Below are positions 4,393 to 25,566 of a DNA stretch of 29,125 nt, in pieces; within the stretch, counting starts at the first letter, position 1, and each line of letters opens with the position of its first letter. Source of the DNA: a virus. Location: the IMG/VR virus record IMGVR_UViG_3300050821_018095, positions 1 to 29,125 of that record; one strand, 5' to 3'. The notes under the pieces are model-generated. The model worked only from the letters and a program-made list of their open reading frames with translations, had not been told where the DNA came from and searched no databases. The position numbers were made by a program, and so were the translations under genes.

Positions 4393-4613
4393 TCAGCGGT
4401 GTGCCCATGATCCCCGTGATCTCCTCCAATGTCGAGGCTCTCGGCCACGACGAGGCGGGACGGAGACTGATAGTCAAGTACAGAGGCGGCGTGCTCTGGG
4501 AGTACGACGGGGTGGACCGGGCGAAAGTGGACGCGCTGCTGGCGGCGGACTCGGTCGGGAGTTTTCTGCATCGGGAGATCAGGGGGAAACACGACGGGAG
4601 ACGTGTCCAATGA
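4389..4613 (+). CDS. KTSC domain protein (74 aa)
   Basis: The 74-residue product matches the small KTSC domain found in many phage and bacterial proteins. It has SSNVEALGHDEAGRRLIVKY, then GGVLWEYDGV, then a helix and the ending SVGSFLHREIRGKH, equivalent to the 'S.GsyfN..Ir' end of the family. KTSC domains are small beta-rich folds, sometimes fused to other proteins, with no settled function. The start is GTG at 4389 (a later ATG at 4407 is possible). Its 3' end forms the left arm of the hairpin around the next start codon. Confidence 0.75.
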   Translation: MISGVPMIPVISSNVEALGHDEAGRRLIVKYRGGVLWEYDGVDRAKVDALLAADSVGSFLHREIRGKHDGRRVQ

Positions 4614-4621
4614 CACGTCTC
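4598..4621 (+). promoter_or_regulatory. Perfect hairpin over the start codon of the head morphogenesis gene
   Basis: GAGACGTGTC (4598-4607) and GACACGTCTC (4612-4621) are perfect 10-base inverted repeats around a 4-base loop. The loop contains the A and T of the ATG at 4610, and the left arm takes part of the only Shine-Dalgarno-like run (GGGAG, 4596-4600). In RNA this would mask both ribosome binding site and start codon, a layout used in translational operators. Whether a protein binds it is unknown. Confidence 0.55.
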
Positions 4622-12207: not shown

Positions 12208-12726
12208 ATGGCGAAGAAGGACAAGACAGCCGAGACCACCGCCGATCAGGACGTCGACGACGGTCCCGACGGCGCGGTCTCCGCGCGCGAGACCGTCACC
12301 GTGGCGAGCAAGTGGCCGACCGGCCTCTGGCTCCAGCTCTTCCGCATGGAGGAGTCGCACGAGCAGATGATGGGCGGCGGCTTCCGGAAGATCGAGAAGG
12401 CCGTGAGGGACGGCGCGCCGATTCGCGTCAACGGGCCGGCCGTCGCGTTCGGCGCTTCGCCGCCGTATCCGGTGATCTGCGGCTTCGCGCTCACGCACAA
12501 CGTTCCCCGCGATCACTGGGAGCGCTGGCGCGAGGCGAACAAGGACTCGGACCTCGTGCGCAACGGTCTCATCTCGGCCTACGCCACGCGGGACGACGCC
12601 GAGGCCTACGCGCGCGACAACGCGAAGGTTCTCTCAGGCATGGAGCCGGTCGATCCCTCGCGGCCGCCCCCCGGTCTGCGCGGCGTGAGGATCGAGAAGT
12701 TCGACGGGAACGCGGCGTCGGCCTGA
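12208..12726 (+). CDS. Hypothetical head-region protein (172 aa)
   Basis: A 172-residue protein with AGGAG upstream. The N-terminal 30 residues are charged and disordered ([19 protein letters not shown]). The rest is an alpha/beta domain with [20 protein letters not shown], then [20 protein letters not shown], then a helical segment and a basic end ([12 protein letters not shown]). It lies between the major capsid gene and the DUF4054 connector. I recognise the arrangement from alphaproteobacterial phages but no function. Stop overlaps the next ATG. Confidence 0.65.
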
Positions 12727-13169
12727 TGGGCGTCGCCGTCTCCTTCGACTACGCGACCTGGGTCGCTCTCTTTCCTCAGTTCGCGTATCTGAGCCAGAAC
12801 CAGGCCACGGGCTACTTCGAGCTCGCGGGTCAGTTTTGCCGAAACGACGGCGGCGGACCCGTGAGCTCGGCGGCGATACAGTCGAACCTGATGCTGCTCG
12901 CCACGGCGCACGTCGCGCAGCTCTTCGCGCCGACGAGCGGGGGGCAGGCGCCGCCCACGATCGTTGGGCGGATATCGAACGCGAGCGAGGGGAGCGTGTC
13001 GGTGGCGACGCAGTACGACGCGCCACAGGCCGCTGCGTGGTGGCTGCAGACGCCGTACGGCGCGGCGTGGTGGGAGAGCACTCGGGTCTATCGCACCATG
13101 CGGTACGTGCCGGGGCCGCAGCGGAGGTTCAACTGGCCGTGGACCGGGAACTCGTGGGGTGTGCGGTAG
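12726..13169 (+). CDS. Head-tail connector protein (DUF4054 type)
   Basis: A 147-residue protein overlapping the previous stop by ATGA. It shows the DUF4054 pattern: [20 protein letters not shown] at the N-terminus (the usual 'F...FP.F......'), a helical [20 protein letters not shown], then [18 protein letters not shown], and a Tyr/Trp-rich end ([14 protein letters not shown]). DUF4054 proteins are thought to complete the head or act as adaptor at the head-tail joint. The position after capsid supports this. It is the last clear virion gene before the sugar cassette. Confidence 0.8.
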
Positions 13170-13193: not shown

Positions 13194-13871
13194 ATGCGTG
13201 ATCAGGTGCCCGAGAGTATGCGAGGAGGCGGCGGAGTGAACGAGCAGACGGTGACGTTTGGGGAGGCTGTCTATGAGAAGAAGCCTCAGCGTAAGTTTCT
13301 TCCGACGCTGTCGGACCTCGTCGACAGGCTCACGATCGTTCAGCAGAAGGCCATCTTCATCTCCGACAAGCGCGACGAGTACGTCGCCGAGATGAACTTG
13401 ATCCTGCACGACATTGATCTCATCCTGTCGGAGCTCGAGAGCAGAGGCAGACGGCTGGGTGCGCGCGAGGTGCGGGCCATAGCGGTCATCATGCTGACCA
13501 ACAGGTTCATCTGGGAGAACGAGTCGCTCGCGCGGCTCGGCGGTCCGGAGCACGATCGTCGCCTGAAGCTCACCCACTCCGTGAACGGAGTTCGCAACAC
13601 GGCGAAGAACGTGCTGGCCGAGATCGACGGCGGACGTCACGACCACAAGATCGACTGCTTCGCCGCCGAATTGGTAGAGGACTTCGGCGATTGGAACGTG
13701 TTCGGGGCGAATGGTGGGTCGCATCTGGAAACAGACGCTGAATTCCGCGCGCGTCTTGAGAAGAGACCGGGCTTCGGACTCGCGACCCACAGTAGGCTCT
13801 TTACGGCCTCTGGTGATGAGCTCGACACGCTGGCATCCTCCTTCTTCTCAGAGAGACGCCGCCCGTGCTGA
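13194..13871 (+). CDS. Conserved phage protein of unknown function at the start of the sugar cassette
   Basis: A 225-residue soluble, mainly helical protein. Key parts are LPTLSDLVDRLTIVQQKAIF, then EMNLILHDIDLILSELESRG, a conserved HSVNGVRNTAKN, and HKIDCFAAELVEDFGDWNVF. From memory, similar 'DRL.IVQ.K...HDIDL' proteins occur in marine T4-like phages near sugar genes; this needs a search. Starts could be the ATG at 13194 (GAGGA upstream) or GTG at 13236 with a stronger AGGAGG. Its end overlaps the thiamine enzyme gene by a few bases, so they are coupled. Beyond residue 180 it is Ser/Arg-rich and less conserved-looking. Confidence 0.65.
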   Translation: MRDQVPESMRGGGGVNEQTVTFGEAVYEKKPQRKFLPTLSDLVDRLTIVQQKAIFISDKRDEYVAEMNLILHDIDLILSELESRGRRLGAREVRAIAVIMLTNRFIWENESLARLGGPEHDRRLKLTHSVNGVRNTAKNVLAEIDGGRHDHKIDCFAAELVEDFGDWNVFGANGGSHLETDAEFRARLEKRPGFGLATHSRLFTASGDELDTLASSFFSERRRPC

Positions 13872-14455
13872 CCGCCTCCGACCTGATCGCCTTCGAGCGC
13901 GACATAGCCGACGCCTTCAACGCCGGCCAGATTCGCGCCCCCGTCCATCTCTCCGGCGGAGGCGAGGAGACTCTCATCGAGATCTTCAGGGAGGTCGGTC
14001 CGCGGGACTGGGTGCTGACGACCTGGCGCAGCCACTACCACGCACTCCTTCGCGGCGTGCCGCCCGCGCAGCTCAAGGCCGATATCCTAGCCGGCCGCTC
14101 CATAACTCTCTGCTACCCCGAGCACCGAGTTCTCTCCTCCGCCATCGTCGGCGGGATCCTGCCGATCGCGGTCGGCATCGCGTGGGCGATCAGGCGAGCG
14201 AACCTGCCCGAGCGCGTCTGGGCTTTCGTCGGCGACATGACCTCGATGACCGGCGTCTTCACCGAGTGCGCCAAGTACGCGCGCGGACACGACCTGCCGA
14301 TCCGCCTCGTGGTCGAGGACAACGGGCGGTCGGTGTGCACGCCGACGCAGGAAGTCTGGGGCAGCGAGAGAAGGAAGAACGAGGGGAAGACGCGGCACTA
14401 TCGCTACGAGAGTTCGTGGCCGCATTCTGGAGCCGGAGTGAGAGTGAACTTTTGA
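13865..14455 (+). CDS. Thiamine diphosphate-dependent enzyme, alpha (cofactor-binding) part
   Basis: A 196-residue protein like the alpha subunit of 2-oxoacid dehydrogenase E1/transketolase N-terminal domains. It contains the ThDP motif as GDM at 123-125 through EDN ending at residue 153 (GDMTSMTGVFTECAKYARGH, then LPIRLVVEDN). Upstream are WRSHYHALLRGVP and SAIVGGILPIAVGIAWAI, which fit the fold. Canonical GDG is GDM here. It should pair with the beta part at 14944 to form an active carbanion-forming (decarboxylating or ketol-transfer) enzyme. It is shorter than cellular E1-alpha but seems complete. GC-rich and coupled to the gene before. Substrate not known; context suggests sugar biosynthesis. 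Confidence 0.8.
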   Translation: MLTASDLIAFERDIADAFNAGQIRAPVHLSGGGEETLIEIFREVGPRDWVLTTWRSHYHALLRGVPPAQLKADILAGRSITLCYPEHRVLSSAIVGGILPIAVGIAWAIRRANLPERVWAFVGDMTSMTGVFTECAKYARGHDLPIRLVVEDNGRSVCTPTQEVWGSERRKNEGKTRHYRYESSWPHSGAGVRVNF

Positions 14456-14652
14456 TGAGCGATATGAATAGACGTAGTCTGTTTCTTGGTGCGACCGCGG
14501 TAATTGGCGCGACAGTTTTGCCGAAGATAAATATTGCTGCTTATGATATAGCGATGCGTCCAATTACAAATTGGCCCCAAACGCAGTCATACATTTTTCA
14601 GGCCATCAAGGAATACGGTGACCTGGAATTGGAGCATATGTTCCTGAGATGA
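14455..14652 (+). CDS. Tat-signal/capsid-fragment chimeric small protein (65 aa)
   Basis: The ATG overlaps the stop of the thiamine enzyme gene. The first ~30 residues form a twin-arginine-like signal (MNRRSLFLGATAVIGATVLP, starting at residue 4) with an RR motif and hydrophobic core. After a short linker comes [20 protein letters not shown] (LE follows), matching 19 of 22 residues of the major capsid protein at 124-145. The protein stops seven codons after this. It is markedly AT-richer than neighbours. It could be recombination debris, or a functional exported or decoy peptide. The gene separates the two halves of the thiamine enzyme. Confidence 0.6.
   Translation: MSDMNRRSLFLGATAVIGATVLPKINIAAYDIAMRPITNWPQTQSYIFQAIKEYGDLELEHMFLR
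14569..14634 (+). repeat. Diverged copy of a capsid gene segment
   Basis: These 66 bases correspond codon for codon to 11429-11494 of the major capsid gene. Of 22 codons, three change the amino acid (R/T, A/S, L/I) and seven differ silently, nearly all at third positions. This suggests an origin in a related, AT-richer capsid gene, or long divergence with the peptide preserved. Confidence 0.75.
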
Positions 14653-14804
14653 GCACCGAGCGCAAGTGCCTGAACTGCGGGAAGCCGATACACCCGGTTC
14701 GCTACAAGTCCGCGAAGTTCTGCGCGAGCTCGTGCCGCGAGGCGTACAACAACGGCAAGCAGCGCGCTATCAGGCTCGGCGCGAAGAGGAGAACGGCGCG
14801 GTGA
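14649..14804 (+). CDS. Small zinc-ribbon protein (51 aa)
   Basis: A 51-residue protein with ERKCLNCGKPIHPVRYKSAK and then FCASSCREAYNNGKQR: two Cys pairs (CX2C...CX3C) that would bind one zinc. The C-terminus is basic (RLGAKRRTAR). Small treble-clef proteins like this are frequent in phages and may bind DNA or RNA. The same kind of paired-Cys module occurs in the HNH remnant at 17208-17447. It overlaps the genes before and after it. Confidence 0.6.
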   Translation: MSTERKCLNCGKPIHPVRYKSAKFCASSCREAYNNGKQRAIRLGAKRRTAR

Positions 14805-14947
14805 CGTTCGTGGTGGGGTTTCTCGTGATCGCGAGTGTCGGCGTCATCATCGCTGCAATGGCAGTCAGGCAGATAGAGGTCAACTCAGTCGAGAAGATGT
14901 GGAGCGATTGCGTTGACAAAGCGCGCGATCGCACGGGCAAGTCGTGA
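14801..14947 (+). CDS. Small single-pass membrane protein (48 aa)
   Basis: GTG start in a GTGA overlap. The first ~22 residues are a membrane helix (MTFVVGFLVIASVGVIIAAM), followed by a charged tail of about 25 residues with one Cys. It may be an N-anchored inner membrane peptide or have an uncleaved signal. Stop overlaps the GTG of the thiamine enzyme beta gene. Unknown role. Confidence 0.5.
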   Translation: MTFVVGFLVIASVGVIIAAMAVRQIEVNSVEKMWSDCVDKARDRTGKS

Positions 14948-15471
14948 GCGCGTACTACGACGAGCTCCGCCGCGTTATGACCGCGCTGTCCGAGGATCCG
15001 CGGATCATCTTCATGGGTCAGTCGGTCGCGTGCGAGGGGACCGCGATGCGCGGCACCCTGACGAGAGTTCCGGCGGACAGACTCCTGGAGCTGCCAGTGT
15101 TCGAGGATACTCAACTCGGCATGGCGCTCGGCATGTCGCTGACAGGGCTGCTGCCGATCTGCATGTATCCGCGAATCAACTTCCTGCTGCTCGCGATGTC
15201 TCAGCTCGCGCTGCATCTCGACAAGTTGTCGCTCTACTCGCGGGGCGGCTACCGCCCGCGCGTCATAGTGCGGACGGCGATCGGGACGGATCGGCCGCTG
15301 GACCCGGGCGTTCAGCATCTCGGCAACTACGCGGACGCGCTGTCGCAGATGCTCAGCGTGGTGCGCGTGGTGCGGCTCGAGAGCGCGAAGATGATCGAGG
15401 AGCAGTATCACGCCGCGACGCGGCGCGAGCACTCGACGGTGCTCGTTGAGGACATGGGGCTGTACGCATGA
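14944..15471 (+). CDS. Thiamine diphosphate-dependent enzyme, beta (pyrimidine-binding) part
   Basis: A 175-residue protein like the pyrimidine-binding domain of transketolase/E1-beta. It has DPRIIFMGQSVACEGT near the start. The Glu of LLELPVFEDTQLGMALGMSL around residue 55 is in the place of the catalytic Glu that activates thiamine. ICMYPRINFLLLAMSQL and VIVRTAIGTDRPLDPGVQHL follow. The usual C-terminal transketolase domain is absent, as expected for compact phage forms. It should assemble with the alpha part at 13865, though three tiny genes lie between them. GTG start, coupled at both ends. Reaction unknown; probably makes a keto-sugar or acyl precursor in the cassette. Confidence 0.78.
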   Translation: MSAYYDELRRVMTALSEDPRIIFMGQSVACEGTAMRGTLTRVPADRLLELPVFEDTQLGMALGMSLTGLLPICMYPRINFLLLAMSQLALHLDKLSLYSRGGYRPRVIVRTAIGTDRPLDPGVQHLGNYADALSQMLSVVRVVRLESAKMIEEQYHAATRREHSTVLVEDMGLYA

Positions 15472-15731
15472 GCGGTCGATTCGGCTCAGACGCGTCGCCA
15501 GCGGCCGAGGGAAATCGCAACACGGCTCAGCGGATGGTGAACGCTGAGAACGGCTTCGTAGACAACTTGATGCAGCTCGGCGGTATCACGAGAGCAGATG
15601 CCGTCAAGGTCCTCGGCGTGTATCGCAAATTGAAGATCGTCAAGATGGACGCGGTGGGCGGACGGATGACCGTGAAACACGGATCCTATCTGGACCGCGA
15701 CGTGATCCAGAGAGCTCTCAGGCAGGCGTGA
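15468..15731 (+). CDS. M[S/T]GR[F/W]G-tagged small protein 5 (87 aa)
   Basis: It starts MSGRFGSDAS in an ATGA overlap. After a Ser/Ala/Asn-rich linker, residues about 28-87 form a helix-rich domain (NGFVDNLMQLGGITRADAVK, then VLGVYRKLKIVKMDAVGGR, then MTVKHGSYLDRDVIQRAL). This pattern is familiar from small phage proteins that lack the tag, and may be a winged-helix-like module. Its stop overlaps the GTG of the PLP enzyme, so the pair is coupled. Function unknown. Confidence 0.72.
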   Translation: MSGRFGSDASPAAEGNRNTAQRMVNAENGFVDNLMQLGGITRADAVKVLGVYRKLKIVKMDAVGGRMTVKHGSYLDRDVIQRALRQA

Positions 15732-16873
15732 CAGGTATGCTTGACTCGACGAGGCGACCCGACTACGACCACCCGACCGCCTTCTCCCTGTGGGGCGACG
15801 AGGAGCGAGCCGCGATCGATCGCGTGCTGACCTCGGGACGTCTGACGATGGGGATAGAGTGCGAACTCTTCGAAGAAGAATTTGCACTCTATCACAATCG
15901 GGCACACGCGATCGCCGTGAACTCCGGCTCGTCCGCCAACCTGATCGCGACCGCCGCGCTGTTCGAGCGCTCTGTCCGTCCCCTGCGAAGGGGATATCGC
16001 GCTGCCGTCCCCGCCCTGGCCTGGAGCACGACGTACGCGCCTCTCGTCCAGCGTGGGATGGATCTCGTACTCGCCGACTGCGACGCGTCGTGGTGCGCGA
16101 GCGACGTGGAGTTCTCGGACGTTCAGCTCGTGGTCGGGTGCTCGATTCTCGGGCGGTCGGCGCGGCTGAGCGATTTAAGAGACACGGCACGCCGAAGAGG
16201 CGTACCGATGCTGGAGGACAACTGCGAGAGTCTCGGAGCGATGTCTCCGCACGGCCTCGCCGGCACCTTCGGCGACCTGAGCACCTTCTCGCTGTTCTAC
16301 TCGCACCAGATCTCGGCGGTCGAGGGCGGCGTGATACTGACGGACGACGACGAGCTCGCGACTCTGTGTCGCATGCTCCGGGCGCACGGCTGGACGCGCG
16401 GGCTGACCGAGCCAACCTCGATCGACGACGAGTACGACTTTCGGGTGATGGGATACAACGTTCGGCCGCTCGAGATGCACTGCGCGATAGCTCGCGCGCA
16501 GTTGAGGAGACTGCCCGAGATGATCGCAGCGAGGCGGGCGAACCTCGAGACGTTCGAGCGGCTCGCGAGCGACCTGCCGATCATCCTGCCGCGCGGCGAC
16601 GGACAGCCGAGTCCGTTCGGTCTTCAGTTCTGCGTCGCGGCGCCAGAAACGCGTCGGAGGCTCGCCGACGCGTTGCGTTCAGCAGGGATCGACTGCCGGC
16701 CGCCGACCGGCGGATCGCTCAGGCTCCACGAGTACGGCGCGCGGTGGCGCGACCAGCGCACGCCGACCGCCGACAGGATACACAGGACCGGCATGTTTCT
16801 GGGCTGCGCGCCGTGGGACATCGGCGACAAGATCGAGCGCGCGGTTCAGGTGATGAGGGAAGTATTGACTTAA
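15728..16873 (+). CDS. DegT/DnrJ/EryC1-fold PLP enzyme with His at the lysine position (sugar 3-dehydratase-like)
   Basis: A 381-residue PLP-fold enzyme. NSGSSANLIATAAL (about 60-73) binds cofactor phosphate. PMLEDNCESLGAM (near 158-170) carries the Asp that contacts the pyridine N. YNVRPLEMHCAIARAQL matches the family. In aminotransferases the internal Lys lies in a 'SF...K...GEGG' box. Here the box reads TFSLFYSHQISAVEGG, with His193 at the Lys place. Replacement by His is known for ColD and the E1/DdhC-type dehydratases, which remove a 3-hydroxyl from nucleotide-4-keto sugars. A dehydratase is therefore likelier than an aminotransferase. No iron-sulfur Cys set is evident, as in ColD. Starts at GTG, coupled to the tagged gene upstream. 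Confidence 0.82.
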   Translation: MTGMLDSTRRPDYDHPTAFSLWGDEERAAIDRVLTSGRLTMGIECELFEEEFALYHNRAHAIAVNSGSSANLIATAALFERSVRPLRRGYRAAVPALAWSTTYAPLVQRGMDLVLADCDASWCASDVEFSDVQLVVGCSILGRSARLSDLRDTARRRGVPMLEDNCESLGAMSPHGLAGTFGDLSTFSLFYSHQISAVEGGVILTDDDELATLCRMLRAHGWTRGLTEPTSIDDEYDFRVMGYNVRPLEMHCAIARAQLRRLPEMIAARRANLETFERLASDLPIILPRGDGQPSPFGLQFCVAAPETRRRLADALRSAGIDCRPPTGGSLRLHEYGARWRDQRTPTADRIHRTGMFLGCAPWDIGDKIERAVQVMREVLT

Positions 16874-16915
16874 GAATGCTTGTCACAGGTGTTATCATGT
16901 GCTACACGTCACGGC

Positions 16916-17447
16916 ATGATAGGAAAAGTAGATAGAAAGACAATCAGATTAGCGAAGGCTATTCAGATTGACATCACTCGTGGGTCAATTAACAAGGGCG
17001 ATGGCCGTGTTCGGTTTGTTAGAAGAGGCAGATTCCTAGGCGGAAGTGCGCTGCGATCTCGCGTAGTGTGGTGGCTGAATACTGGTGAAGTTTTAGACCC
17101 ATCAGTAGCACAAGAACACTGTAAGGACTGATGATAGATTTTCTAATTTAGAGAAAATCGATCATCTCGAACATGCGCAGCATCATAACCCTAAGACTGC
17201 GGCGTATGCGACAAGAAAATGTCTGACATGTAAAAAGACATTTGAGATAGTTGCTTGGCGTTTGAACGATAAATCAAGAGGACAGTTCTGCGGGCAGACG
17301 TGCTATCACGCAAAAGAAAAGGTCTTAGCTAGAATTAAGAAAAAGTGTGAGTGTTGCGGTGATGAGTTCATCTGTACGCCGTCTCGAGCAAAGAAAAGAA
17401 GATTTTGTTCGCCGACATGTTCAGCCTTAAAAAGGTGGCACCCTTGA
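16916..17447 (+). pseudogene. HNH homing endonuclease, frameshifted, with C-terminal zinc ribbons
   Basis: An AT-rich stretch between two sugar genes. The first frame (16916-17131; TTG at 16880 possible) reads like the N-terminal half of a phage HNH endonuclease, ending LRSRVVWWLNTGEVLDPSVA then QEHCKD. The next frame (+1) continues with DDRFSNLEKIDHLEHAQHHN, the normal second half of the HNH motif. A Cys-rich end follows: KCLTCKKTF...QFCGQTC and KCECCGDEF...RFCSPTC, two zinc ribbons. The break at about 17128-17132 lies inside the active-site loop (usual 'H.DGN..NDR..NL'), with several residues missing, so the enzyme is probably dead. Composition unlike its neighbours marks it as a mobile insertion. 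Stop overlaps the SDR start. Confidence 0.72.
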
Positions 17448-18376
17448 GGATTTTAATTACTGGATGTGCGGGATATATAGGCTCTGTCCTCTGCCCCCAC
17501 CTACTGTCCCTCGGCCACTCGGTCGTCGCCCTGGACAGCTTCGCGCACGGCGTCCCGAGCCTCGCCGCGTGCTGCGCGCGCGAGCGCTTCGATCTAGTAA
17601 GAGGGGATGCCCGCGATTCGCGGACATTAGCGCCTCTGCTGCGCGAGGCGGACGTCCTGATTCCGCTGGCCGCGATCGTCGGCGCTCCGGCGTGCGACGC
17701 GGATCAGCACGCGGCCGAGAGTGTCAACGTAGACGCGATCGCGACCGCGCTTCGTCTCATGACCGGCAGTCAGGCCGTGATCGCGCCGATATCCAACAGC
17801 GGATACGGAGTGGGAGAGAAGAACACCGAGTGCACCGAGGACACGCCGATGCGCCCGATCAGCCTCTACGGCCGAACCAAGGTGCAGGCCGAGCGCCTGA
17901 TACTCGGTCGAGGAAACGCGATCAGCCTCCGTCTCGCCACTGTCTTCGGGATGTCCCCCCGGCTGCGGCTCGATCTCCTGGTGAACGACTTCGTCTGGCG
18001 AGCCGCGACTGATGGCGCGATCGTGCTGTTCGAGGGGCATTTCAGGCGGAACTACGTGCACGTCAGGGACGTGTCCAGAGCATTCTCTCACTCTATCGAT
18101 CATCTGTCTCAGATGGTCGACAAGTCTTTCAACGTCGGCCTCTCCGACGCGAACCTCACCAAGCGTCAGCTCTGCGAGCGAATCGCGAAGCACGTGCCGG
18201 GGCTGCAGATTCTCGAGGCGCCGCTCGGCGTCGATCCCGACAGGAGAGACTACGTGGTCTCGAACAGGAGGATCGAGGCGACCGGCTTTCGGTGCCACCA
18301 CTCTCTGGACGACGGGATCGCCGAGCTGCTGAAGGGCTATCGGATGCTGCGTCGGACACAACATGGGAACGCGTGA
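17444..18376 (+). CDS. NAD-dependent epimerase/dehydratase (extended SDR)
   Basis: About 310 residues with an N-terminal Rossmann motif (RILITGCAGYIGS, GxxGxxG), the Ser of ISNSGYGVG and a YGRTK catalytic Tyr142/Lys146 pair. RLATVFGMSPRLRLDLL and a YVHVRDVSRAF segment are typical of nucleotide-sugar epimerases/dehydratases. The most likely start is TTG at 17444 in a TTGA overlap, with AAGGTGG upstream; an ATG at 17417 would add nine residues. The product would act on the nucleotide-sugar used by the PLP enzyme and glycosyltransferases nearby. Precise reaction cannot be given. GC content returns to the phage norm here after the HNH region. Confidence 0.82.
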   Translation: MRILITGCAGYIGSVLCPHLLSLGHSVVALDSFAHGVPSLAACCARERFDLVRGDARDSRTLAPLLREADVLIPLAAIVGAPACDADQHAAESVNVDAIATALRLMTGSQAVIAPISNSGYGVGEKNTECTEDTPMRPISLYGRTKVQAERLILGRGNAISLRLATVFGMSPRLRLDLLVNDFVWRAATDGAIVLFEGHFRRNYVHVRDVSRAFSHSIDHLSQMVDKSFNVGLSDANLTKRQLCERIAKHVPGLQILEAPLGVDPDRRDYVVSNRRIEATGFRCHHSLDDGIAELLKGYRMLRRTQHGNA

Positions 18377-18377
18377 C

Positions 18378-18671
18378 ATGAGCGGACGATTTGGAAAATT
18401 GACGAAAGATGCTGTTGGGAGTTACGCTGAACGAGCTGAACTCGCGCGTCTGAACGATAAGAGGCTAAGTGGGAAGGGATTCCAGATCGGACAACGTTGG
18501 TGTCGCGACAACTACGGCAAGACTAAAGATCAGTGCAGAACGTGGGCTAAGAGTCAAGGTTACGGCACTGCAGAAGTGGCTGAGATCCTCAGAGGATACG
18601 CCGAAGAGCGCACTATGATGCATGAGATGGGAGTTCGCAACAAGAACACAAACAGGGGGTTTTTAGATTAG
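18378..18671 (+). CDS. M[S/T]GR[F/W]G-tagged small protein 6 (97 aa)
   Basis: The ATG lies one base past the SDR stop. The protein begins MSGRFGKLTKDAVG and then forms a basic, helical chain (ELARLNDKRLSGKGFQIGQR, YGKTKDQCRTWAKSQGYG, TAEVAEILRGYAEERTMM). Two Cys and several Trp suggest a compact fold. No known family. It is AT-richer than the enzyme genes around it. Confidence 0.7.
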   Translation: MSGRFGKLTKDAVGSYAERAELARLNDKRLSGKGFQIGQRWCRDNYGKTKDQCRTWAKSQGYGTAEVAEILRGYAEERTMMHEMGVRNKNTNRGFLD

Positions 18672-18806
18672 ATGCATCTGGATCTCCTCATAGTCCACCC
18701 CTGGGGAATGCGTGACCATGACACTGCTTCTGCTGCCGCGCGAGTTTCGCTGGAAGCAACTTCGACTATGGATGCGCATGCATGTCTGGCCTTGATCTTC
18801 TCATAA
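18672..18806 (+). pseudogene. Truncated 5' remnant resembling the radical SAM gene
   Basis: A 44-codon frame directly after the tagged gene begins MHLDLLIVHPWG, which matches the start of the radical SAM protein at 19062 (MSLDLLIVHPG). After about 12 residues similarity stops and the rest looks non-coding-like (ARVSLEATSTMDAHACLALI). This could be the remains of an earlier or duplicated radical SAM or glycosyltransferase gene. The segment 18672-18819 otherwise holds nothing I recognise. Confidence 0.4.
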
Positions 18807-18819
18807 ATACGAGTGTCGC

Positions 18820-19065
18820 ATGAGCGGACGGTTCGGCAAGGACGCGAAGAAGCCCGACTATGACTTTTCAACCGCTGCGGGGCAGAAGCGCATGATGGAA
18901 GAGAACCGCCCCGGCAGCAGTGGATACGTAGATCCTAATCGCCGCGTTGATCTTCAAAAGAAGGGAGACTATGGCGCAGATCCTCTTGGGAATGGAAAAT
19001 TCAGAATGGTCCCGAGCGGTGATATCGTCGACTTCGAAGAACGAAATCGGAGACTGAAGAAGTGA
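18820..19065 (+). CDS. M[S/T]GR[F/W]G-tagged small protein 7 (81 aa)
   Basis: It starts MSGRFGKDAKKPDYDF. The rest is hydrophilic and basic (AAGQKRMMEENRPGSSGY, then DPNRRVDLQKKGDYGADPLG) and ends in a strand-rich part with FRMVPSGDIVDFEERNRRL. It has no Cys, signal or membrane segment. Stop overlaps the GTG of the radical SAM gene, so the two are translationally coupled. No clear Shine-Dalgarno sequence precedes it. Confidence 0.7.
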   Translation: MSGRFGKDAKKPDYDFSTAAGQKRMMEENRPGSSGYVDPNRRVDLQKKGDYGADPLGNGKFRMVPSGDIVDFEERNRRLKK

Positions 19066-20522
19066 GCCTCGACCTGCTGATCGTCCACCCCGGCGCCGCT
19101 CACGGCATCTACGGCGCTCTCGGCGACACGCTCGTCGCCGTGGAGTCGCCGCTGTGGGCGAGGCTGATCGCCGGGTACTGCCGGGACCGGGGGTGGAGTG
19201 TTCGCATTCTGGACGCAGAGGCGAGTCGCGTCGGCCCCGAAGCCGTGGCCGCCGTGGCAGAACAGGAGCGTCCCCGACTCGTCTGTCTCGCCGTCTACGG
19301 TCATCAGCCGTCGGCGTCCACGCAGCAGATGCACGGGGCGGGGCTGACGGCGCGGGCGATCAGGAGCATCTGGCCCGAGGCGAAGATCATCATGCTCGGC
19401 GGGCATCCGTCGGCGCTGCCGGGCAGAACTATGGTCGATGAAGACATTGATTATGTCTGCGTCGGCGAGGGACCGATCACCGTGGACACGCTGCTTCGAG
19501 GCGAGCAACTTGAGAGAGTGCCTGGACTCGTCTACAAAGTGAATAGCGTGATCGCCATGAACGAGCGAGCACCTCTGATCGAGGACATCGGTCAGCTTCG
19601 CGGCGACGCGTGGGATCTGCTGCCGATGAGCGCGTACCGCGCCCACAACTGGCAATGCTTCGGCGACATGAGCAGGCGTCAGCCGTACGCCAGCATCTAC
19701 ACGTCGCTCGGCTGTCCGATGAGCTGCTCGTTCTGCTGCATCAACGCTCCGTTCGGCGAGCGCCGCTACCGCACGCGCCCCCCGGGCGACGTGGTCGCCG
19801 AGGTGCGAGTGCTGCGCGAGCGATACGGCGTCAGCACTCTCAAGATCACGGACGAGATGTTCGTGCTCAATCCTCGGCACTACGGCGCGATCTGCGAGGG
19901 CCTCGCCGCGCTGCCGCACGCCGACGAGCTGAATATCTGGTCCTACAGCCGGATCGACACGGTGAAGCCTGACAAGCTGAGTCTGCTGCGTCGCGCTGGC
20001 GTCAGATGGCTCGCGCTCGGCATCGAGTCGGGCTCGGCGTACGTGCGGGATGGCGCGAGGAAGGACTTCCGGAACTCGGACATCGAGGGCGTCGTTCGCG
20101 CCATTCAGGCGGCGGGCATCAACGTGATCGGGAACTATATCTTCGGACTGCCGGACGATGACATTGCCTCCATGTGCGCGACCCTGTCGCTGGCGCAGGA
20201 GCTCAACACTGAGTTCGCCAACTTCTACTGCGCGATGTCGTATCCCGGCTCGCCGCTGTATGACGAGGCAGTTCGCGAGGGCTGGACGCTGCCGAGCTCG
20301 TGGAGAGCCTACAGTCAGCACAACAGCGAAAGTAGACCACTGGACACGCGACACGTGAGCGCGGCGCACGTTCTCAGATTCAGGGACGAAGCGTTCATTC
20401 AGTACTTCTCCTCATCCCGCTACCAGGACATGATCGGCGCGAAATTCGGCGAGGAGACGCTCGCGCACGTTCGCAGCATGACGGAGTATAAACTGGAGCG
20501 AAAGCTTCTGGAGGCAGCATGA
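19062..20522 (+). CDS. B12-binding-type radical SAM protein
   Basis: A 486-residue protein starting at GTG. The N-terminal ~160 residues form a cobalamin-binding-like Rossmann domain (LDLLIVHPG, VCLAVYGHQPSAS, AKIIMLGGHPSALPG, YVCVGEGP). The radical SAM domain follows with CPMSCSFC (Cys218, 222, 225) for the 4Fe-4S cluster, then ALGIESGSAYVRDG and GNYIFGLPDDD. Such enzymes methylate or rearrange unreactive carbons. In this cassette a modified sugar or lipid is the likely substrate, but that is inference. The C-terminal ~80 residues are a helical extension. Coupled to tagged genes at both ends. Confidence 0.85.
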   Translation: MSLDLLIVHPGAAHGIYGALGDTLVAVESPLWARLIAGYCRDRGWSVRILDAEASRVGPEAVAAVAEQERPRLVCLAVYGHQPSASTQQMHGAGLTARAIRSIWPEAKIIMLGGHPSALPGRTMVDEDIDYVCVGEGPITVDTLLRGEQLERVPGLVYKVNSVIAMNERAPLIEDIGQLRGDAWDLLPMSAYRAHNWQCFGDMSRRQPYASIYTSLGCPMSCSFCCINAPFGERRYRTRPPGDVVAEVRVLRERYGVSTLKITDEMFVLNPRHYGAICEGLAALPHADELNIWSYSRIDTVKPDKLSLLRRAGVRWLALGIESGSAYVRDGARKDFRNSDIEGVVRAIQAAGINVIGNYIFGLPDDDIASMCATLSLAQELNTEFANFYCAMSYPGSPLYDEAVREGWTLPSSWRAYSQHNSESRPLDTRHVSAAHVLRFRDEAFIQYFSSSRYQDMIGAKFGEETLAHVRSMTEYKLERKLLEAA

Positions 20523-20581
20523 GCGGACGATTCGGCGGCAGGGCGAGCGAGAAAGCCGGGGCGCGAGACATGGCGATGGAC
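20519..20581 (+). repeat. 63-base tag block, copy 1 (copy 2 at 21630-21692)
   Basis: Comparing 20519-20581 with 21630-21692 gives 57 of 63 identical bases. The six differences alter one residue (Met/Leu). Downstream the two genes diverge completely. The block therefore looks like an exchangeable N-terminal module that was copied and joined to different partners. Confidence 0.85.
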
Positions 20582-20743
20582 ACTGGGATCTATTATGTCT
20601 CCTATAAGAACAAGAAAACTGGACAAGTGAAAAGAATTCGAGTTCCATCGGAGAGCGAGGCGCATGCGGCCTCCCGTGCTCTTGGGTATCTCCCAAAGGA
20701 GAACCGCGAGGACTGGGAGCATCTGAAGACAGAGCAACCGTGA
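20519..20743 (+). CDS. M[S/T]GR[F/W]G-tagged small protein 8 (74 aa)
   Basis: The ATG overlaps the radical SAM stop. The first 21 residues (MSGRFGGRASEKAGARDMAM plus D) are nearly identical to those of the tagged protein at 21630, but the rest is different. It has a compact beta-beta-alpha pattern: IYYVSYKNKKTGQVKRIRV, then SESEAHAASRALGYLPKE. That part resembles the C-terminal half of the tagged protein at 1707. Stop overlaps the GTG of the next glycosyltransferase-like gene. Function unknown. Confidence 0.73.
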   Translation: MSGRFGGRASEKAGARDMAMDTGIYYVSYKNKKTGQVKRIRVPSESEAHAASRALGYLPKENREDWEHLKTEQP

Positions 20744-21633
20744 CACGCGTCGTAGTTCTCCGCACCTTCACGAGCTCCTGCGTTCCGATCTTCTCGCCGC
20801 TGCGACGCCTCGGTCACGAGGTCTCCGAGATAACGTACGATCTGCGCGGCGTCGACTTCGGCGCGCTGCCGGCTCGGGTCGCCGAGCTGCGACCCGACTG
20901 GGTCCTGCTGATGGGCTGCGCGGACGACCAGCCGACGGCATTAGTTCCCACGGTCGATGTCCTCTCCGACATCGGCCGCGTCTTCCCTCTAGTGCACTTG
21001 TGTTGCGACGGCTCCGAGCCCGTGTGGTGGCCGCAGCTCGAGAGATACCGGGACAGCGGCGCGTTCGCGCTGCAGATCAACGTGGACGGCGTGCGCGTCG
21101 GCCCGATCGCGGAGGACGGAATCACCTGCCTCTGCCCGATCGATCCGGCGTCTCTGCCGGATCCGCCGAGACCGCACGCCGAGCGGACGGTGCGACTCGG
21201 GTTCTGCGGGAGCAGCGGCGGCGACCATCCGCGGACGCGCGCCTTAGAAAGCATCATGGACGTATTGACCATACGTCCACGAGACCACGACTCTCCGGCC
21301 GGCTATCTCGACTTCCTCTCGTCGTGCCGATGCGCGTGGAACCACGCGGCGACGGGCACGGGCGACAGGTCGCACGTCAAGGCGAGAGTGATAGAGGCCG
21401 CCCTGGCGGGCGCGCTCGTGCTCGAGACGGCCGGATCGCCGACGCGGCGGTGGTTCGCGCCGGGCGAGGATTATCTGGAGTACAACAGCGCGGACGAGGT
21501 GAGAGAGCACCTCGCCTGGGCCGACGTCCGACCTGAGGAGGCCGAGGCGATGGCGCTGCGAATGCGAAGAAAGATAGTCGAGAGCCACTCGCCCGCGTTG
21601 CTGTGGGACGAGGTGATCAGGAAAATCACATGA
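20740..21633 (+). CDS. Glycosyltransferase-like protein (CgeB/GT4-like), paralog A
   Basis: A 297-residue protein starting at GTG. It has two Rossmann-like halves as in GT-B enzymes: VVVLRTFTSSCVPIFSPLRR with LGHEV, and a C-terminal half with HVKARVIEAALAGALVLETA and RWFAPGEDYLEYNSADEV. This is the donor-binding motif of Glyco_trans_1_2 (CgeB-like) proteins. The first half also contains WVLLMGCADDQP and PLVHLCCDGSEPVW, both paralleled in the protein at 22818, so these are paralogs. It presumably transfers a nucleotide-activated sugar; acceptor unknown. Confidence 0.75.
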   Translation: MTRVVVLRTFTSSCVPIFSPLRRLGHEVSEITYDLRGVDFGALPARVAELRPDWVLLMGCADDQPTALVPTVDVLSDIGRVFPLVHLCCDGSEPVWWPQLERYRDSGAFALQINVDGVRVGPIAEDGITCLCPIDPASLPDPPRPHAERTVRLGFCGSSGGDHPRTRALESIMDVLTIRPRDHDSPAGYLDFLSSCRCAWNHAATGTGDRSHVKARVIEAALAGALVLETAGSPTRRWFAPGEDYLEYNSADEVREHLAWADVRPEEAEAMALRMRRKIVESHSPALLWDEVIRKIT

Positions 21634-21863
21634 GCGGACGATTCGGTGGCAGGGCGAGCGAGAAGGCCGGGGCGCGGGATCTCGCGATGGACGCTTCCGA
21701 GTTCAGGGTCGGCGACAAGGTGCACCTTGGCTTCGGCGTTAAAGGTGGAGCAGGGTTTTACGGCGTCGTGACGAAGATCGATGATCGCATGGTCAAGATT
21801 CGCAATCCCGAGGGAAAGACGTACACGGGGCCGGTCAGTCGACTGACGAGTGACGATCGCTGA
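21630..21863 (+). CDS. M[S/T]GR[F/W]G-tagged small protein 9 (77 aa), SH3-like
   Basis: It starts at ATG in an ATGA overlap. The first 21 residues duplicate those of the gene at 20519. The rest, about residues 23-77, is a small beta-barrel-like module (EFRVGDKVHLGFGVKGGAG, FYGVVTKIDDRMVKIRNPEG, then KTYTGPVSRLTS). That module is familiar, from memory, as a stand-alone small protein in other phages without the tag. Such folds often bind nucleic acid or protein. The stop overlaps the next tagged gene. Confidence 0.73.
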   Translation: MSGRFGGRASEKAGARDLAMDASEFRVGDKVHLGFGVKGGAGFYGVVTKIDDRMVKIRNPEGKTYTGPVSRLTSDDR

Positions 21864-22153
21864 TGTCTGGTCGCTGGGGCGCGAGCGACGCGAAGCCTCT
21901 CGCGGAGATGCCGAGAGCTGAGCTACTGCGTCGCATCGCGAAGCTGGACGCTGAGTCCAGTGACCTCAACAAACAGTTGATCCAGGCGGGACATGGTCTC
22001 ACCAAGATCCAGGACATTTTGAAGATGTCCGATCCTCTGTCGCAGAAGTACAAGAAGAACCACGAGGAGCAGATGGAGCTGAGAGCCGAGCGCGAGCATC
22101 GAATGCGTTATCAGGGCACCGAGCATCCGGTAAAGAAGAGCAAGTGGCTGTGA
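21863..22153 (+). CDS. M[S/T]GR[F/W]G-tagged small protein 10 (96 aa), coiled coil
   Basis: It starts MSGRWGASDAK (with TCT for Ser and TGG for Trp). Most of the chain is helical and charged, probably a coiled coil (RAELLRRIAKLDAESSDLNK, QLIQAGHGLTKIQDIL, KKNHEEQMELRAEREHRM). It ends in a basic tail (HPVKKSKWL). It could oligomerise. The stop overlaps the start of the glycosyltransferase gene. Confidence 0.72.
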   Translation: MSGRWGASDAKPLAEMPRAELLRRIAKLDAESSDLNKQLIQAGHGLTKIQDILKMSDPLSQKYKKNHEEQMELRAEREHRMRYQGTEHPVKKSKWL

Positions 22154-22821
22154 TCTCTATCACGCTTCCGTCGATCAGGCCGATCGCTCTGACCCACGCG
22201 CTGCGTAACCTTCTGTCCGCGACGCGAGGCGACCTGCAGATCGTGGTCGTCTCGCCCTTCCGCCCCCCGGTCCTCGACGACCGAGTCGAGTGGATTCGCG
22301 AGCACGAGCCGCGCGGCCCCAACGCGGCGCACGCGGCGGCGATGGAGCGAGTGCGAGGCGACGTGGTCGCGGCGTGGGTCGACGATCACCTGCTGATGGA
22401 CGGGTGGGACGCGGGAATAGAAAGAGAGATCGGCGAGCTGGAGCAGCGCGGAAGACCCGCGTTGCTCGGACTGCGACACGCCGACCGCGATCAGATCGGC
22501 ACGGTGTTTGGTCTCTACTATCCCTATTTCCCCGTCATGCGAGCAGACGATGCTCGCGAGATTGGCTGGTTCGACGGCGCGTACCGGCGCGGCTTCGCGG
22601 ACGCGGACCTCGCCATGCGCGTGATCGCGGCGGGCGGCGCGACGGGCTGGACGGCGCGGGGCGTGGCGACGCGCTGCGCGGAGGACGAGGAGAAGGGCGA
22701 GACGGTGAGCTGCGACGCGGCGGACGAGAATCTGTTTCTGCGGCGCTGGAGCGCGGGGCCGGGGGCCGGATGGCGGACCGACTCGCTGCGCGAGTACAAC
22801 AGGGACATGGCGACAGCGTGA
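22150..22821 (+). CDS. Family 2-like glycosyltransferase
   Basis: About 223 residues in the GT-A (GT2) style. The opening is ISITLPSIRPIALTHALRNL, then LQIVVVSPF. The metal/nucleotide motif appears as AAWVDDHLLMDGWD (DDH in the place of DXD). An acceptor-side motif PYFPVMRADDAREIGWFD and FADADLAMRVIAAG fits the usual 'G..De.f...EDvDl..R' region. The start could be GTG at 22150 (GTGA overlap, the local rule) or GTG at 22144. Coupled to tagged gene 10 and to the next glycosyltransferase. Acceptor unknown. Confidence 0.75.
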   Translation: MISITLPSIRPIALTHALRNLLSATRGDLQIVVVSPFRPPVLDDRVEWIREHEPRGPNAAHAAAMERVRGDVVAAWVDDHLLMDGWDAGIEREIGELEQRGRPALLGLRHADRDQIGTVFGLYYPYFPVMRADDAREIGWFDGAYRRGFADADLAMRVIAAGGATGWTARGVATRCAEDEEKGETVSCDAADENLFLRRWSAGPGAGWRTDSLREYNRDMATA

Positions 22822-23705
22822 GATTCCTAGTCCTCACGACTGGCACGCCAGACACCGAGAAGCTCGTCCGCTCCGTGACGTGCCTCGGTCACGAGACCCG
22901 CGTGGTGCAGTACGACGTCGTGGGCGTGGACGTGCCGGGCGTGGTCGAGGAGACGCGAGCGGACGCGACGATCTACGTCGGCGCGTGCGACGACTTTCAC
23001 AACGGAGCGCCCGTGCCGTCGGTCGACGCGCTGTGCCGCATGAATCGCGCGTCGCCGATGATTCACATCTGCTCCGACGCGGCCGATCCGCCGTGGCATT
23101 CTCTTCTCGAGAGCTACCATGCTGCGGGCGCCTTCAGACTTCAGGTCGCGATCGACGGCGTTCGCTCGTCGCCGATTGGACGATTCGGGCGGGTCGCTCT
23201 CACTCCGGTCGACCCGTCGCAGTACGTCGAGCGACCCTGGAGCGAGCGAAGCGTGCCGTGCGGCTTCGCCGGCGGAGGCGGCGCCCGCGTCGACTGGATT
23301 CGTCCCATGATCGATCGCGGCGCGCTTCAGTGGTGGAACGAGAGCGGCTTCGCGCCGTACGCCGAGCTCTGCGAGTTCTACGGGCGCTGCCAGCTCGTCG
23401 TGAACGACGCGCGAAGCGGCAGCGGCGCGGCGCGGCACGTGAAGGGCAGGTTCGTCGAGGCGTCGCTGGCCGGCGCCGTGATCGTGGAGCCGCGCGACTC
23501 GCCGGCCCGCGAGTGGTTCGAGCCCGGCGTGGACTTCCTGGAGTGGGGCTCGGTGGACGAGGCGACCGAGCACGCGCGGCAGGCTTCGAGCAGATCCGCA
23601 GAGAACGAGAAGATGGCGAGCAGGATGCGAGCCGGCATGCTGGAGCGCCACGCGGCCGGGCCGTTCTGGCGCGGCGTGCTGGAGCAGGCGGGCATATCGT
23701 GCTGA
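22818..23705 (+). CDS. Glycosyltransferase-like protein (CgeB/GT4-like), paralog B
   Basis: A 295-residue protein with the same plan as the gene at 20740. It opens with RFLVLTTGTPDTEKLVRSVT then CLGHE. ATIYVGACDDF and PMIHICSDAADPPWHSLLES follow. The donor-binding region is HVKGRFVEASLAGAVIVEPR, then REWFEPGVDFLEWGSVDEA. The two proteins probably arose by duplication and may add sugars in sequence. Start is GTG in a GTGA overlap. It is the last gene before a 151-base non-coding gap, so it may end the cassette transcript. Confidence 0.75.
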   Translation: MRFLVLTTGTPDTEKLVRSVTCLGHETRVVQYDVVGVDVPGVVEETRADATIYVGACDDFHNGAPVPSVDALCRMNRASPMIHICSDAADPPWHSLLESYHAAGAFRLQVAIDGVRSSPIGRFGRVALTPVDPSQYVERPWSERSVPCGFAGGGGARVDWIRPMIDRGALQWWNESGFAPYAELCEFYGRCQLVVNDARSGSGAARHVKGRFVEASLAGAVIVEPRDSPAREWFEPGVDFLEWGSVDEATEHARQASSRSAENEKMASRMRAGMLERHAAGPFWRGVLEQAGISC

Positions 23706-23856: not shown

Positions 23857-24300
23857 GTGGCGACCACGCGGGGCGGCAGCAAGGCCGCCAAGGTGCTGGA
23901 GCGCATCGCCGTGGCCGCCAAGAGAGCGCAGCGCGTGCGGGTCGGCTTCCTATCGGACGCCACGTATCCGGACGGCACGTCGGTCGCCATGGTCGCGGCG
24001 ATACAGGACTTCGGCGCGCCGCGCGCGGGCATTCCGCCTCGTCCGTTCTTCCGGAACATGATCGCGGCGAAGTCTAAGGACTGGCCCGAGGCGGTCGGCA
24101 GGTTGCTGATCGCGAATAACTTCGACGCTCAGCGGACATTGGAGCAGGCCGGCGAGGCGATAGCCGGTCAGCTTCGACAGTCGATTCACGACACGAACTC
24201 GCCGCCGCTCAAGCCGGCGACGATCAGGGGCAAGGGATTCGCGAAGCCACTCATCGACACGTCGGTGATGATCAACAGCGTGAGCAGCGAGGTGGAGTGA
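23857..24300 (+). CDS. Tail-completion/virion morphogenesis protein (HK97 gp10/Mu gpG-like)
   Basis: A 147-residue protein starting at GTG. The pattern [20 protein letters not shown], then [20 protein letters not shown], then a helical section ([11 protein letters not shown]) and [20 protein letters not shown] is that of phage neck or tail-completion proteins. The 'VA...EFG......PPRPF' and 'PLIDTG.M..S' boxes are typical. It would sit at the head-tail or tail-tube joint. Its stop overlaps a tagged gene. The upstream gap suggests this may begin a new transcript. Confidence 0.75.
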
Positions 24301-24629
24301 TGAGCGGGCGGTTTGGACAGATGGCTGCTGATGCTAATGTTGAACCAAAGTCTGTATTGGAAGGAATGAAGTTCCTGCCGACAAGAATTCAGGAGCAGGT
24401 GAGGCGAATCGGTAAGCCTGAAAATCTGAAGATGTCAGATCTTCCTCCAAGAATTCAAGAGATTATTCGACGACAGGGTGGAAGTGGAAGAGACTCCGAT
24501 CTCGCCACCGATCCTCCAGTCTCCGAAGCTCAGCGCCGCGCGATGTTCGCCGCGAAGGCGGGGCGCAGCACGCTCGGCATACCGAAGAGCGTCGGCGAGA
24601 AGTTCGTGGGCAAGGGGCACGACAAGTAG
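24300..24629 (+). CDS. M[S/T]GR[F/W]G-tagged small protein 11 with DUF3008-like end (109 aa)
   Basis: The ATG overlaps the previous stop. It begins [18 protein letters not shown] helical middle contains a repeated RIQE motif ([22 protein letters not shown]). The end, [20 protein letters not shown] followed by [11 protein letters not shown], matches the DUF3008 motif found in many phage proteins. This shows the tag can be joined to a known phage mini-domain. The first two thirds are AT-rich and the DUF3008 part is GC-rich, so the gene is itself a composite. It abuts the next glycosyltransferase-like gene. Confidence 0.75.
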
Positions 24630-24630
24630 C

Positions 24631-25566
24631 ATGGGCCAAACATTCTTATTTTCTCTCTGCAATCACAACGACGCCGGCCAGCGCTCGCTGGAGGACGTGA
24701 TCGGCATCTTCGGCCATCAGCTCCGCGCTCTGGGCCACGAGGCCGTCTGGGTTCCGTCGCAGCGGGACAAGTTTCTCACGCGCGAGGCGGGGATCAATGT
24801 CGTGGTCGAGGGCTTCACGGACTGGAGCGTGAGCTGGATGAGCGAGGCGGCGGCGCGCGGCGCCAGGTTCGTGATACTGGCGACCGAGGAGCCGACTGAC
24901 CAGGGCTTCAATCACGGGCAGAGTCCCGAGATGATTCAGAGACAGAAGAAGTTTCCGGAGGCCGCTCGCCACGCCGAGGCCATCCTGCATCTCGTGCCCG
25001 GCGAGCGCGTCAACGCGTGGTACGCGCAGCACGCGCCGTCGGCGTACGTCGAGCTCGGCTACGCGCCGAGCCTGATCCGCGCGGCGGACGGGCGCGAGCC
25101 CGAGTACGACTACGGCTTCTTTGGGTCGCTGTCTCGTCGCCGCCTGAAGATCCTGAAGGAGCTGGCGCGCACCGTGCCGGGGCACCAGAAGGCCGTGCGA
25201 ATCGAGGCGACGTTCCCGACGCAGGCCGAGCGCGACCGCGTGATGCGACAGGCGAAGGTCATAGTCCAGATAAGGAAGGACGACCGCATGGGGCTCGTGT
25301 CCTCGTCGCGCTGCAACACGGCGCTGCATCTCGGCCGTCCGGTCGTGGCCGAGCCGCACGACCTGTCGCGGCCGTGGGACGAGGTGATCAAGTTCTCGTC
25401 CTCGCTCGACGCGTTCTACAACGACTGCCTGCTGGCCCGCAGCGCGTGGCGCGGCGTGCACGCGGCGCAGATGGAGAAGTTTCGCGAGAAGATGTCCCCC
25501 GAGATCTGCGTCGGTCGGCCGCTGCGGTCGGTCGGCGTGCTCGACGAGAGAAGGAGCGCGGCATGA
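24631..25566 (+). CDS. Glycosyltransferase-like protein within the tail genes
   Basis: A 311-residue GT-B-like protein. It begins TFLFSLCNHNDAGQRSLEDV and has a Rossmann-like first half (HQLRALGHEAVWVPSQRD, ARFVILATEEPTDQG). A linker with DYGFFGSLSRRRLKILKELA follows, as in CgeB-like enzymes. The second half has AKVIVQIRKDDRMGLVSSSR, then CNTALHLGRPVVAEPHD. It is less close to the two paralogs in the cassette. Being set among tail genes, it may glycosylate a tail or fiber protein, but this is inference. Stop overlaps the next secreted protein gene. Confidence 0.7.
   Translation: MGQTFLFSLCNHNDAGQRSLEDVIGIFGHQLRALGHEAVWVPSQRDKFLTREAGINVVVEGFTDWSVSWMSEAAARGARFVILATEEPTDQGFNHGQSPEMIQRQKKFPEAARHAEAILHLVPGERVNAWYAQHAPSAYVELGYAPSLIRAADGREPEYDYGFFGSLSRRRLKILKELARTVPGHQKAVRIEATFPTQAERDRVMRQAKVIVQIRKDDRMGLVSSSRCNTALHLGRPVVAEPHDLSRPWDEVIKFSSSLDAFYNDCLLARSAWRGVHAAQMEKFREKMSPEICVGRPLRSVGVLDERRSAA

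Follow-up and report, generated by a model that had tools for sequence, protein, structure and literature searches.

A recurrent viral gene module with a probable role in remodelling and transferring a GDP-linked heptose

The element studied here lies at positions 13194–23705 of the IMG/VR virus record IMGVR_UViG_3300050821_018095, a single contig of 29,125 bases that was analysed at its full length and is referred to below as the window. According to the list of open reading frames (ORFs) and their translations, the element is a contiguous, intact block in which all open frames are on the + strand, and the stop and start codons of many neighbouring genes overlap. An original prediction, made from the sequence alone, had described it as a sugar cassette between head and tail genes, and every gene named there was present at its place on the + strand. 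The enzymes of the block, a protein that accompanies them and an adjoining glycosyltransferase are as follows.

13194–13871, + strand: module partner, predicted helical bundle, weakly DUF4254/DUF6165-like
13865–14455, + strand: thiamine diphosphate (ThDP) enzyme, alpha subunit (PP domain; GDM...DN motif); E1_dh 1e-9; PHROG 34187 columns 7–195
14944–15471, + strand: ThDP enzyme, beta subunit (PYR domain only, no transketolase_C); Transket_pyr 1.1e-7; PHROG 34187 columns 238–401
15728–16873, + strand: predicted ColD-type C3-dehydratase dependent on pyridoxamine or pyridoxal phosphate (PMP/PLP), DegT family, catalytic His; DegT 1.7e-52; ColD 2gms 6.5e-66
17405–18376, + strand: short-chain dehydrogenase/reductase (SDR) resembling the nucleoside diphosphate (NDP)-heptose C4-dehydrogenase Cj1427; SDR family 2.8e-29; 6vo6/6vo8 4.9e-99
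19062–20522, + strand: radical S-adenosylmethionine (SAM) enzyme with a B12-binding domain; PF02310 5e-19, PF04055 1e-15
20740–21633, + strand: glycosyltransferase, Glyco_trans_1_2; PF13524 4e-13
22144–22821, + strand: GT2-like glycosyltransferase; PF00535 0.0076, below the family cut-off
22818–23705, + strand: glycosyltransferase, Glyco_trans_1_2; PF13524 9.5e-11
24631–25566, + strand: fourth glycosyltransferase, predicted GT-B fold, no sequence family, outside the block; AlphaFold pLDDT 73

The solved structure nearest to the DegT protein was ColD, with the next non-ColD chain at 1.4e-28, and the two proteins were 41% identical over 293 aligned residues. At the position of the Lys that binds PLP in aminotransferases, 69 of the 71 homologues aligned carried His, the window protein included, in phages and bacteria alike. 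Its sequence places the DegT protein among the ColD-type 3-dehydratases, with removal of the C3 oxygen from a guanosine diphosphate (GDP)-4-keto sugar as the predicted reaction. The neighbouring SDR matched 6vo6/6vo8 with 49.7% identity over 306 amino acids, and the SDR of a bacterial locus, L085, had an identical top match. We take 6vo6 to be Cj1427, a GDP-heptose C4-dehydrogenase; a structure study of Cj1427 is cited in the published work on GDP-heptose modification (PMC10680097, PMC10440746). The gene had been called an SDR epimerase, of which the SDR assignment was retained and the generic epimerase replaced, on the 6vo6 match, by a C4-dehydrogenase-like enzyme.

The two ThDP subunits correspond to the two halves of a single PHROG family, 34187. 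In an alignment of 16 homologues, G123 and D124 of the alpha subunit were invariant and D152 and N153 near-invariant, giving a GD(M/G)...DN motif with few exceptions. In the corresponding alignment of the beta subunit E54 was invariant and lined up with a conserved Glu of pyruvate dehydrogenase (PDH) E1-beta; we presume that this residue is catalytic. The ThDP/Mg motif and the candidate catalytic Glu of an E1 alpha/beta-like pair are both present, and the best matches of the pair were to PDH/2-oxo acid dehydrogenase E1, not to transketolase. The beta subunit was matched by Transket_pyr alone, and a full-length arrangement including a transketolase_C domain was not found. The pair probably works like the alpha-KADH2 branching enzymes, to which it is compared without being classed among them, and two-carbon branching is its predicted reaction. 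The original prediction had spoken of a split thiamine enzyme: there are indeed two ORFs, but they make up a natural two-subunit enzyme. A broken ThDP gene was rejected, since each subunit has its own gene in the relatives that were examined, and two cyanophages have them fused.

The helical-bundle protein at 13194 accompanies the module in viruses. Homologues begin near RKFLPTLSDLVDR in the alignment, and a protein of this type was found in 31 of 76 and 13 of 22 viral loci and in 0 of 80 bacterial loci. A DUF4254 match was obtained for 7 of 18 members of the family (best 0.0046), and when the predicted structure was compared with viral models nothing matched at E <= 0.001.

The product of 19062–20522 holds the B12-binding domain, the Radical_SAM domain and the CxxxCxxC motif that define a B12-dependent radical SAM enzyme, and it is predicted from these to bind cobalamin. 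Its CxxxCxFC was invariant in the alignment. The top NCBIfam matches were HpnJ (4.8e-44) and then BchE (4.1e-34; 118.3 bits, below the family cut-off of 481.35). Both profiles matched all nine aligned members, with every score below the cut-offs, and HpnJ ranked first, again below its cut-off, in four further radical SAM proteins, one of them already among the nine. Most enzymes of the B12-dependent radical SAM kind are methylases; HpnJ, BchE and OxsB belong to the non-methylating ones, which form or rearrange rings (PMC13142503). Two side observations concern this gene. Radical SAM homologues with in-frame, intein-like inserts at two different CxxxCxxC positions were seen at L022:1560–2600, L023:420–1010 and L025:10600–11700, and a 44-amino acid ORF at 18672–18806 starts with MHLDLLIVHP, close to the MSLDLLIVHP with which the radical SAM protein opens at 19062, and is possibly a remnant.

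Three glycosyltransferases had been placed inside the block and were found there; a fourth adjoins it outside, at 24631–25566. The products of 20740–21633 and 22818–23705 are paralogues with 37% identity, and homologues of 22144–22821 occur in L020 and L023, loci that carry other module genes too. The model of 24631–25566 gave Foldseek matches to GT-B proteins (1.9e-6) and was aligned with a GT-B enzyme at a VIA-align Z of 16.2 and an rmsd of 3.8 over 268 residues; as modelled, the protein has a GT-B fold. It was 56–63% identical to homologues in related viral loci. No match to 20740–21630 or 24628–25563 was found in phage records.

The distribution of the module was followed through a core set made up of ThDP alpha, ThDP beta, DegT, SDR and radical SAM genes. 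Scans of IMG/VR with single proteins gave 10 and 12 relatives, and a scan with the ThDP alpha alignment gave at least 564 viral stretches that encode this subunit. Among the 76 viral loci of the largest scan, the beta subunit was present in 76, DegT in 60, the radical SAM gene in 60 and the SDR in 54, together with HddA in 31 and an HldE-type kinase in 22. After dereplication, all five core genes were found in 30 of 64 viral and 28 of 55 bacterial loci, and 40 of the 64 viral loci carried a heptose kinase of HddA or HldE type. The five-gene combination is recurrent, not unique, and the earlier view that its occurrence in one phage is unusual does not hold; nor is the cassette absent in all close relatives, a possibility raised at the same time, as relatives carry module genes. 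The module profiles had zero matches in 80 control viral stretches (708 kb). In one bacterial order just 5 of the 399 genomes had the ThDP alpha subunit, which is rare and not a housekeeping gene. When viral sequences were scanned with the DegT protein by itself, no relative could be confirmed, probably because the short patterns used were too specific, and the ThDP alpha of L085 had no match in a search of plasmids.

The bacterial scan, made with ThDP alpha, gave 80 loci spanning Nitrospirota, Verrucomicrobiota, Planctomycetota, Pseudomonadota, Cyanobacteriota and others. These loci contained radical SAM (61), SDR (58) and DegT (72) genes and also genes for heptose synthesis, namely an HddA-like kinase (67), HddC-like (58), GmhA (20) and GmhB (11), with module and heptose genes mostly on the same strand and no more than 5 kb apart. 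In L085 the order is radical SAM, HddA, alpha, beta, DegT, HddC, GmhA and SDR, with a GmhB-like gene further on; HddA, HddC and GmhA are the best NCBIfam matches of the first three heptose genes, all below the curated cut-offs, and GmhB is the best profile match of the last. In the SDR tree viruses and bacteria were mixed, with at least four changes forced by starred branches and eight by parsimony.

From the computed gene content, family assignments, conserved catalytic residues and co-occurrence with GDP-heptose genes, we infer a substrate, an order of reactions, a branching reaction, a radical SAM reaction and an acceptor. The block would be a pathway that remodels a GDP-linked heptose by C4 oxidation, C3 deoxygenation and two-carbon branching at C4 and then transfers the sugar, a reading of the sequence to which we give a probability of about 55%. 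The SDR would oxidize C4 of GDP-heptose and the ColD-type enzyme would strip the C3 oxygen, leaving GDP-3-deoxy-4-keto-heptose. Cj1427 oxidizes GDP-heptose at C4 with alpha-ketoglutarate and a PLP enzyme takes off the C3 oxygen (PMC10680097, PMC10440746); the two activities have been combined in vitro to give this same product, reported at m/z 616.08 (PMC10680097). The ThDP pair would next decarboxylate pyruvate and place the two-carbon unit on the C4 ketone as a 4-C-acetyl branch, the expected product being 3-deoxy-4-C-acetyl-heptose, C9H16O7. The PDH-E1-like pairs AviB1/B2, Pau11/12 and EvdU5/S3 have been assigned to the two-carbon branching of ketosugars, pyruvate is backed as the donor for some of them by feeding, knockout or in vitro work, and KbDH has been assayed in vitro on ketones (PMC4425429, PMC10338323, PMC12247030). 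The B12-domain radical SAM enzyme may then alter the carbon skeleton again, by ring closure or rearrangement or by C-methylation, before up to four glycosyltransferases pass the sugar to an acceptor, most likely a virion protein. The unusual deoxy or branched sugar of the original prediction is well supported by the gene content and can be specified as probably GDP-heptose-derived, 3-deoxy and C4-branched.

Parts of this route are found in known systems. Campylobacter jejuni has a homologous C4-dehydrogenase and a ColD-type C3-dehydratase for GDP-heptose modification, and GDP-heptose genes adjoin the module in many bacterial loci; there, however, the published C3-dehydratase route begins with a 4,6-dehydratase, Cj1427 and the C3-dehydratase were paired only in vitro, and no ThDP or radical SAM step was found described (PMC10680097, PMC10440746). 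In yersiniose synthesis a 3-deoxygenated 4-ketosugar likewise receives a two-carbon branch from a ThDP enzyme, but YerE belongs to the decarboxylase superfamily and its substrate is a cytidine diphosphate (CDP)-hexose, whereas here an E1-type pair probably acts on GDP-heptose (PMC12247030). AviB1/B2, Pau11/12, EvdU5/S3 and KbDH, the alpha-KADH2 enzymes, resemble the pair by description as two-subunit PDH-E1-like ThDP enzymes for sugar branching; they belong to antibiotic clusters, and Pau11 and Pau12 have 325 and 345 amino acids against 196 and 175 here, where the C-terminal parts are missing. The cyanophages S-SM2 and P-TIM68 share the ThDP family in fused form, in clusters whose other genes include an annotated phosphoheptose isomerase and an annotated heptose kinase/adenylyltransferase, but no DegT, SDR or radical SAM homologue was found in their 18.6 kb stretches (tblastn, 1e-4).

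A more speculative extension, which we consider rather unlikely, is that the cassette makes a carbocyclic, caryose-like sugar. Caryose (4,8-cyclo-3,9-dideoxy-nonose) of Pseudomonas (Trinickia) caryophylli has a 3-deoxy C7 chain, a two-carbon unit bonded to C4 and a cyclopentane (PMC9026286). Its formula, C9H16O7, is that of the predicted branched intermediate, from which it would follow by a C7–C8 bond, a match on paper only. The radical SAM enzyme would join acetyl C8 to C7 and close the cyclopentane, and because the formulae are equal this last step would be a redox-neutral isomerization. HpnJ and BchE, its best family profiles, are ring-forming or rearranging non-methylases, but the scores are far below the cut-offs. 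Caryose biosynthetic genes were not found in the literature searched, where the passages on caryose describe structure only.

Several observations weigh against the GDP-heptose pathway. The HpnJ score of the radical SAM protein, 151 bits, is far from the family cut-off of 577.6, and both ThDP subunits lack the C-terminal regions of classical E1. The PDB record of 6vo6, which we take to be Cj1427, names only a putative sugar-nucleotide epimerase/dehydratase, and the SDR tree contains a few doubtful assignments or rows. Neither HddA nor HddC was found in the window or in the related records L020, L021, L025, L107, L108, L115 and L133, of which L108 and three others exceed 70 kb; both were found in two other related viral records. 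With these genes missing from the window and its nearest relatives, GDP-heptose is probably made by the host.

The sugar could instead be an unbranched 3-deoxy (or C-methyl) heptose, with the ThDP pair working like a transketolase to supply sedoheptulose-7-phosphate, from which the GDP-heptose pathway starts (PMC10680097). A weak match to the split-chain transketolase 6yak (0.0089) points this way, but the E1 character of the best ThDP matches, the separate split transketolase that L013 carries next to its own E1 pair and the lack of GmhA and HddA in the window make it unlikely. About equally unlikely is a hexose pathway leading from a GDP-mannose-derived 4-keto sugar to a colitose-like or yersiniose-like branched dideoxyhexose. 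The known ColD substrate is GDP-4-keto-6-deoxymannose (PMC10440746), some viral relatives have dehydratase-like SDRs and the window lacks hdd genes; however, no 4,6-dehydratase was recognized in the cassette, the nearest solved relative of the SDR is 6vo6, and the bacterial and many of the viral copies adjoin heptose genes.

The remaining alternatives concern the acceptor. Related bacterial clusters sit among polysaccharide-like genes, and the same sugar might be placed on the host envelope, in receptor masking or serotype conversion, a reading that differs from the GDP-heptose pathway set out above in the acceptor only. No flippase, polymerase or lipid-carrier transferase was recognized in the cassette, and its genes lie within the head and tail module; for these reasons a virion protein is favoured and the envelope is regarded as a doubtful but real alternative. 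DNA hypermodification is very improbable. T4 AGT led the structural matches of the fourth glycosyltransferase, at the Z of 16.2, with enzymes acting on other acceptors at 15.4 or lower, but many such GT-B enzymes fall within 1–2 Z of AGT, so that the match reflects the fold, and no base-modifying enzyme was recognized in the 29 kb fragment.

The flanking genes and the small genes interleaved with the enzymes are listed below.

12726–13169, + strand: DUF4054 head/connector protein, left flank; PF13262 7.3e-12, PHROG 302 1.8e-23
14649–14804, + strand: small ORF, predicted treble-clef zinc-binding; DUF2116 1.3e-5, just below the cut-off
14801–14947, + strand: small ORF with a hydrophobic N-terminal stretch (ORF list and translation)
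15468–15731, + strand: MSGRFG-tagged small protein
17262–17447, + strand: second small Cys-rich ORF, weakly like 14649–14804
18378–18671, + strand: MSGRFG-tagged small protein
18820–19065, + strand: MSGRFG-tagged small protein
20519–20743, + strand: MSGRFG-tagged small protein
21630–21863, + strand: MSGRFG-tagged small protein
21863–22153, + strand: MSGRWG-tagged small protein
23857–24300, + strand: tail completion/Neck1 protein, right flank; PHROG 222 2.7e-44
24300–24629, + strand: MSGRFG-tagged small protein

The tagged small genes noted earlier were confirmed: ATGAGYGGNMGNTTYGG matched 8 times in the window, with 0.00 expected. Ten small ORFs, at 1111, 1317, 1707, 15468, 18378, 18820, 20519, 21630, 21863 and 24300, open with MSGRFG or a near variant and then mostly diverge. 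Synonymous codons vary in the tags, and conservation therefore appears to act on the peptide and not on the DNA. The starts of two tagged genes (20518–20584 and 21629–21695) are 90% identical over 67 nt, while the remainders differ. The related viral module loci that were scanned showed no such tags, and the MSGRFG DNA pattern gave only a single match per stretch in viral contigs. The likeness of the two Cys-rich ORFs, 14649–14804 and 17262–17447, is weak (BLASTP 0.002).

The genes 5' of the cassette encode a portal protein, a Mu F-like head protein (4610–6418), a NUDIX/DUF2213 protein, a cement-like protein and the major head protein. TerL was rejected for 1899–3698, which is the portal protein by profile matches. 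The Mu F-like head gene contains a candidate intein (residues 332–589; PF14890 1.3e-5, below the family cut-off), and the single ORF at 7381–9975 matches NUDIX hydrolase in its N-terminal part and DUF2213/head-maturation protease further on. Promoter and terminator scans gave matches near chance level, and nothing in Rfam matched at the gathering score, so that no B12 riboswitch was found.

The cassette is a defined and recurrent module whose substrate is likely to be GDP-heptose, a variant of known sugar pathways, and the gene list can now be read as a pathway whose proposed substrate and intermediates can be put to the test. It encodes a dehydrogenase/dehydratase pairing that was assembled only in vitro in the cited work, and the five-gene set, for which no assigned product was found in the literature, occurs repeatedly in viruses and in several bacterial phyla. 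Should the radical SAM enzyme turn out to close a ring, the module would suggest enzymes for caryose-type sugars, and if the carbocyclic reading is true, a virus would encode a route to a carbocyclic monosaccharide.

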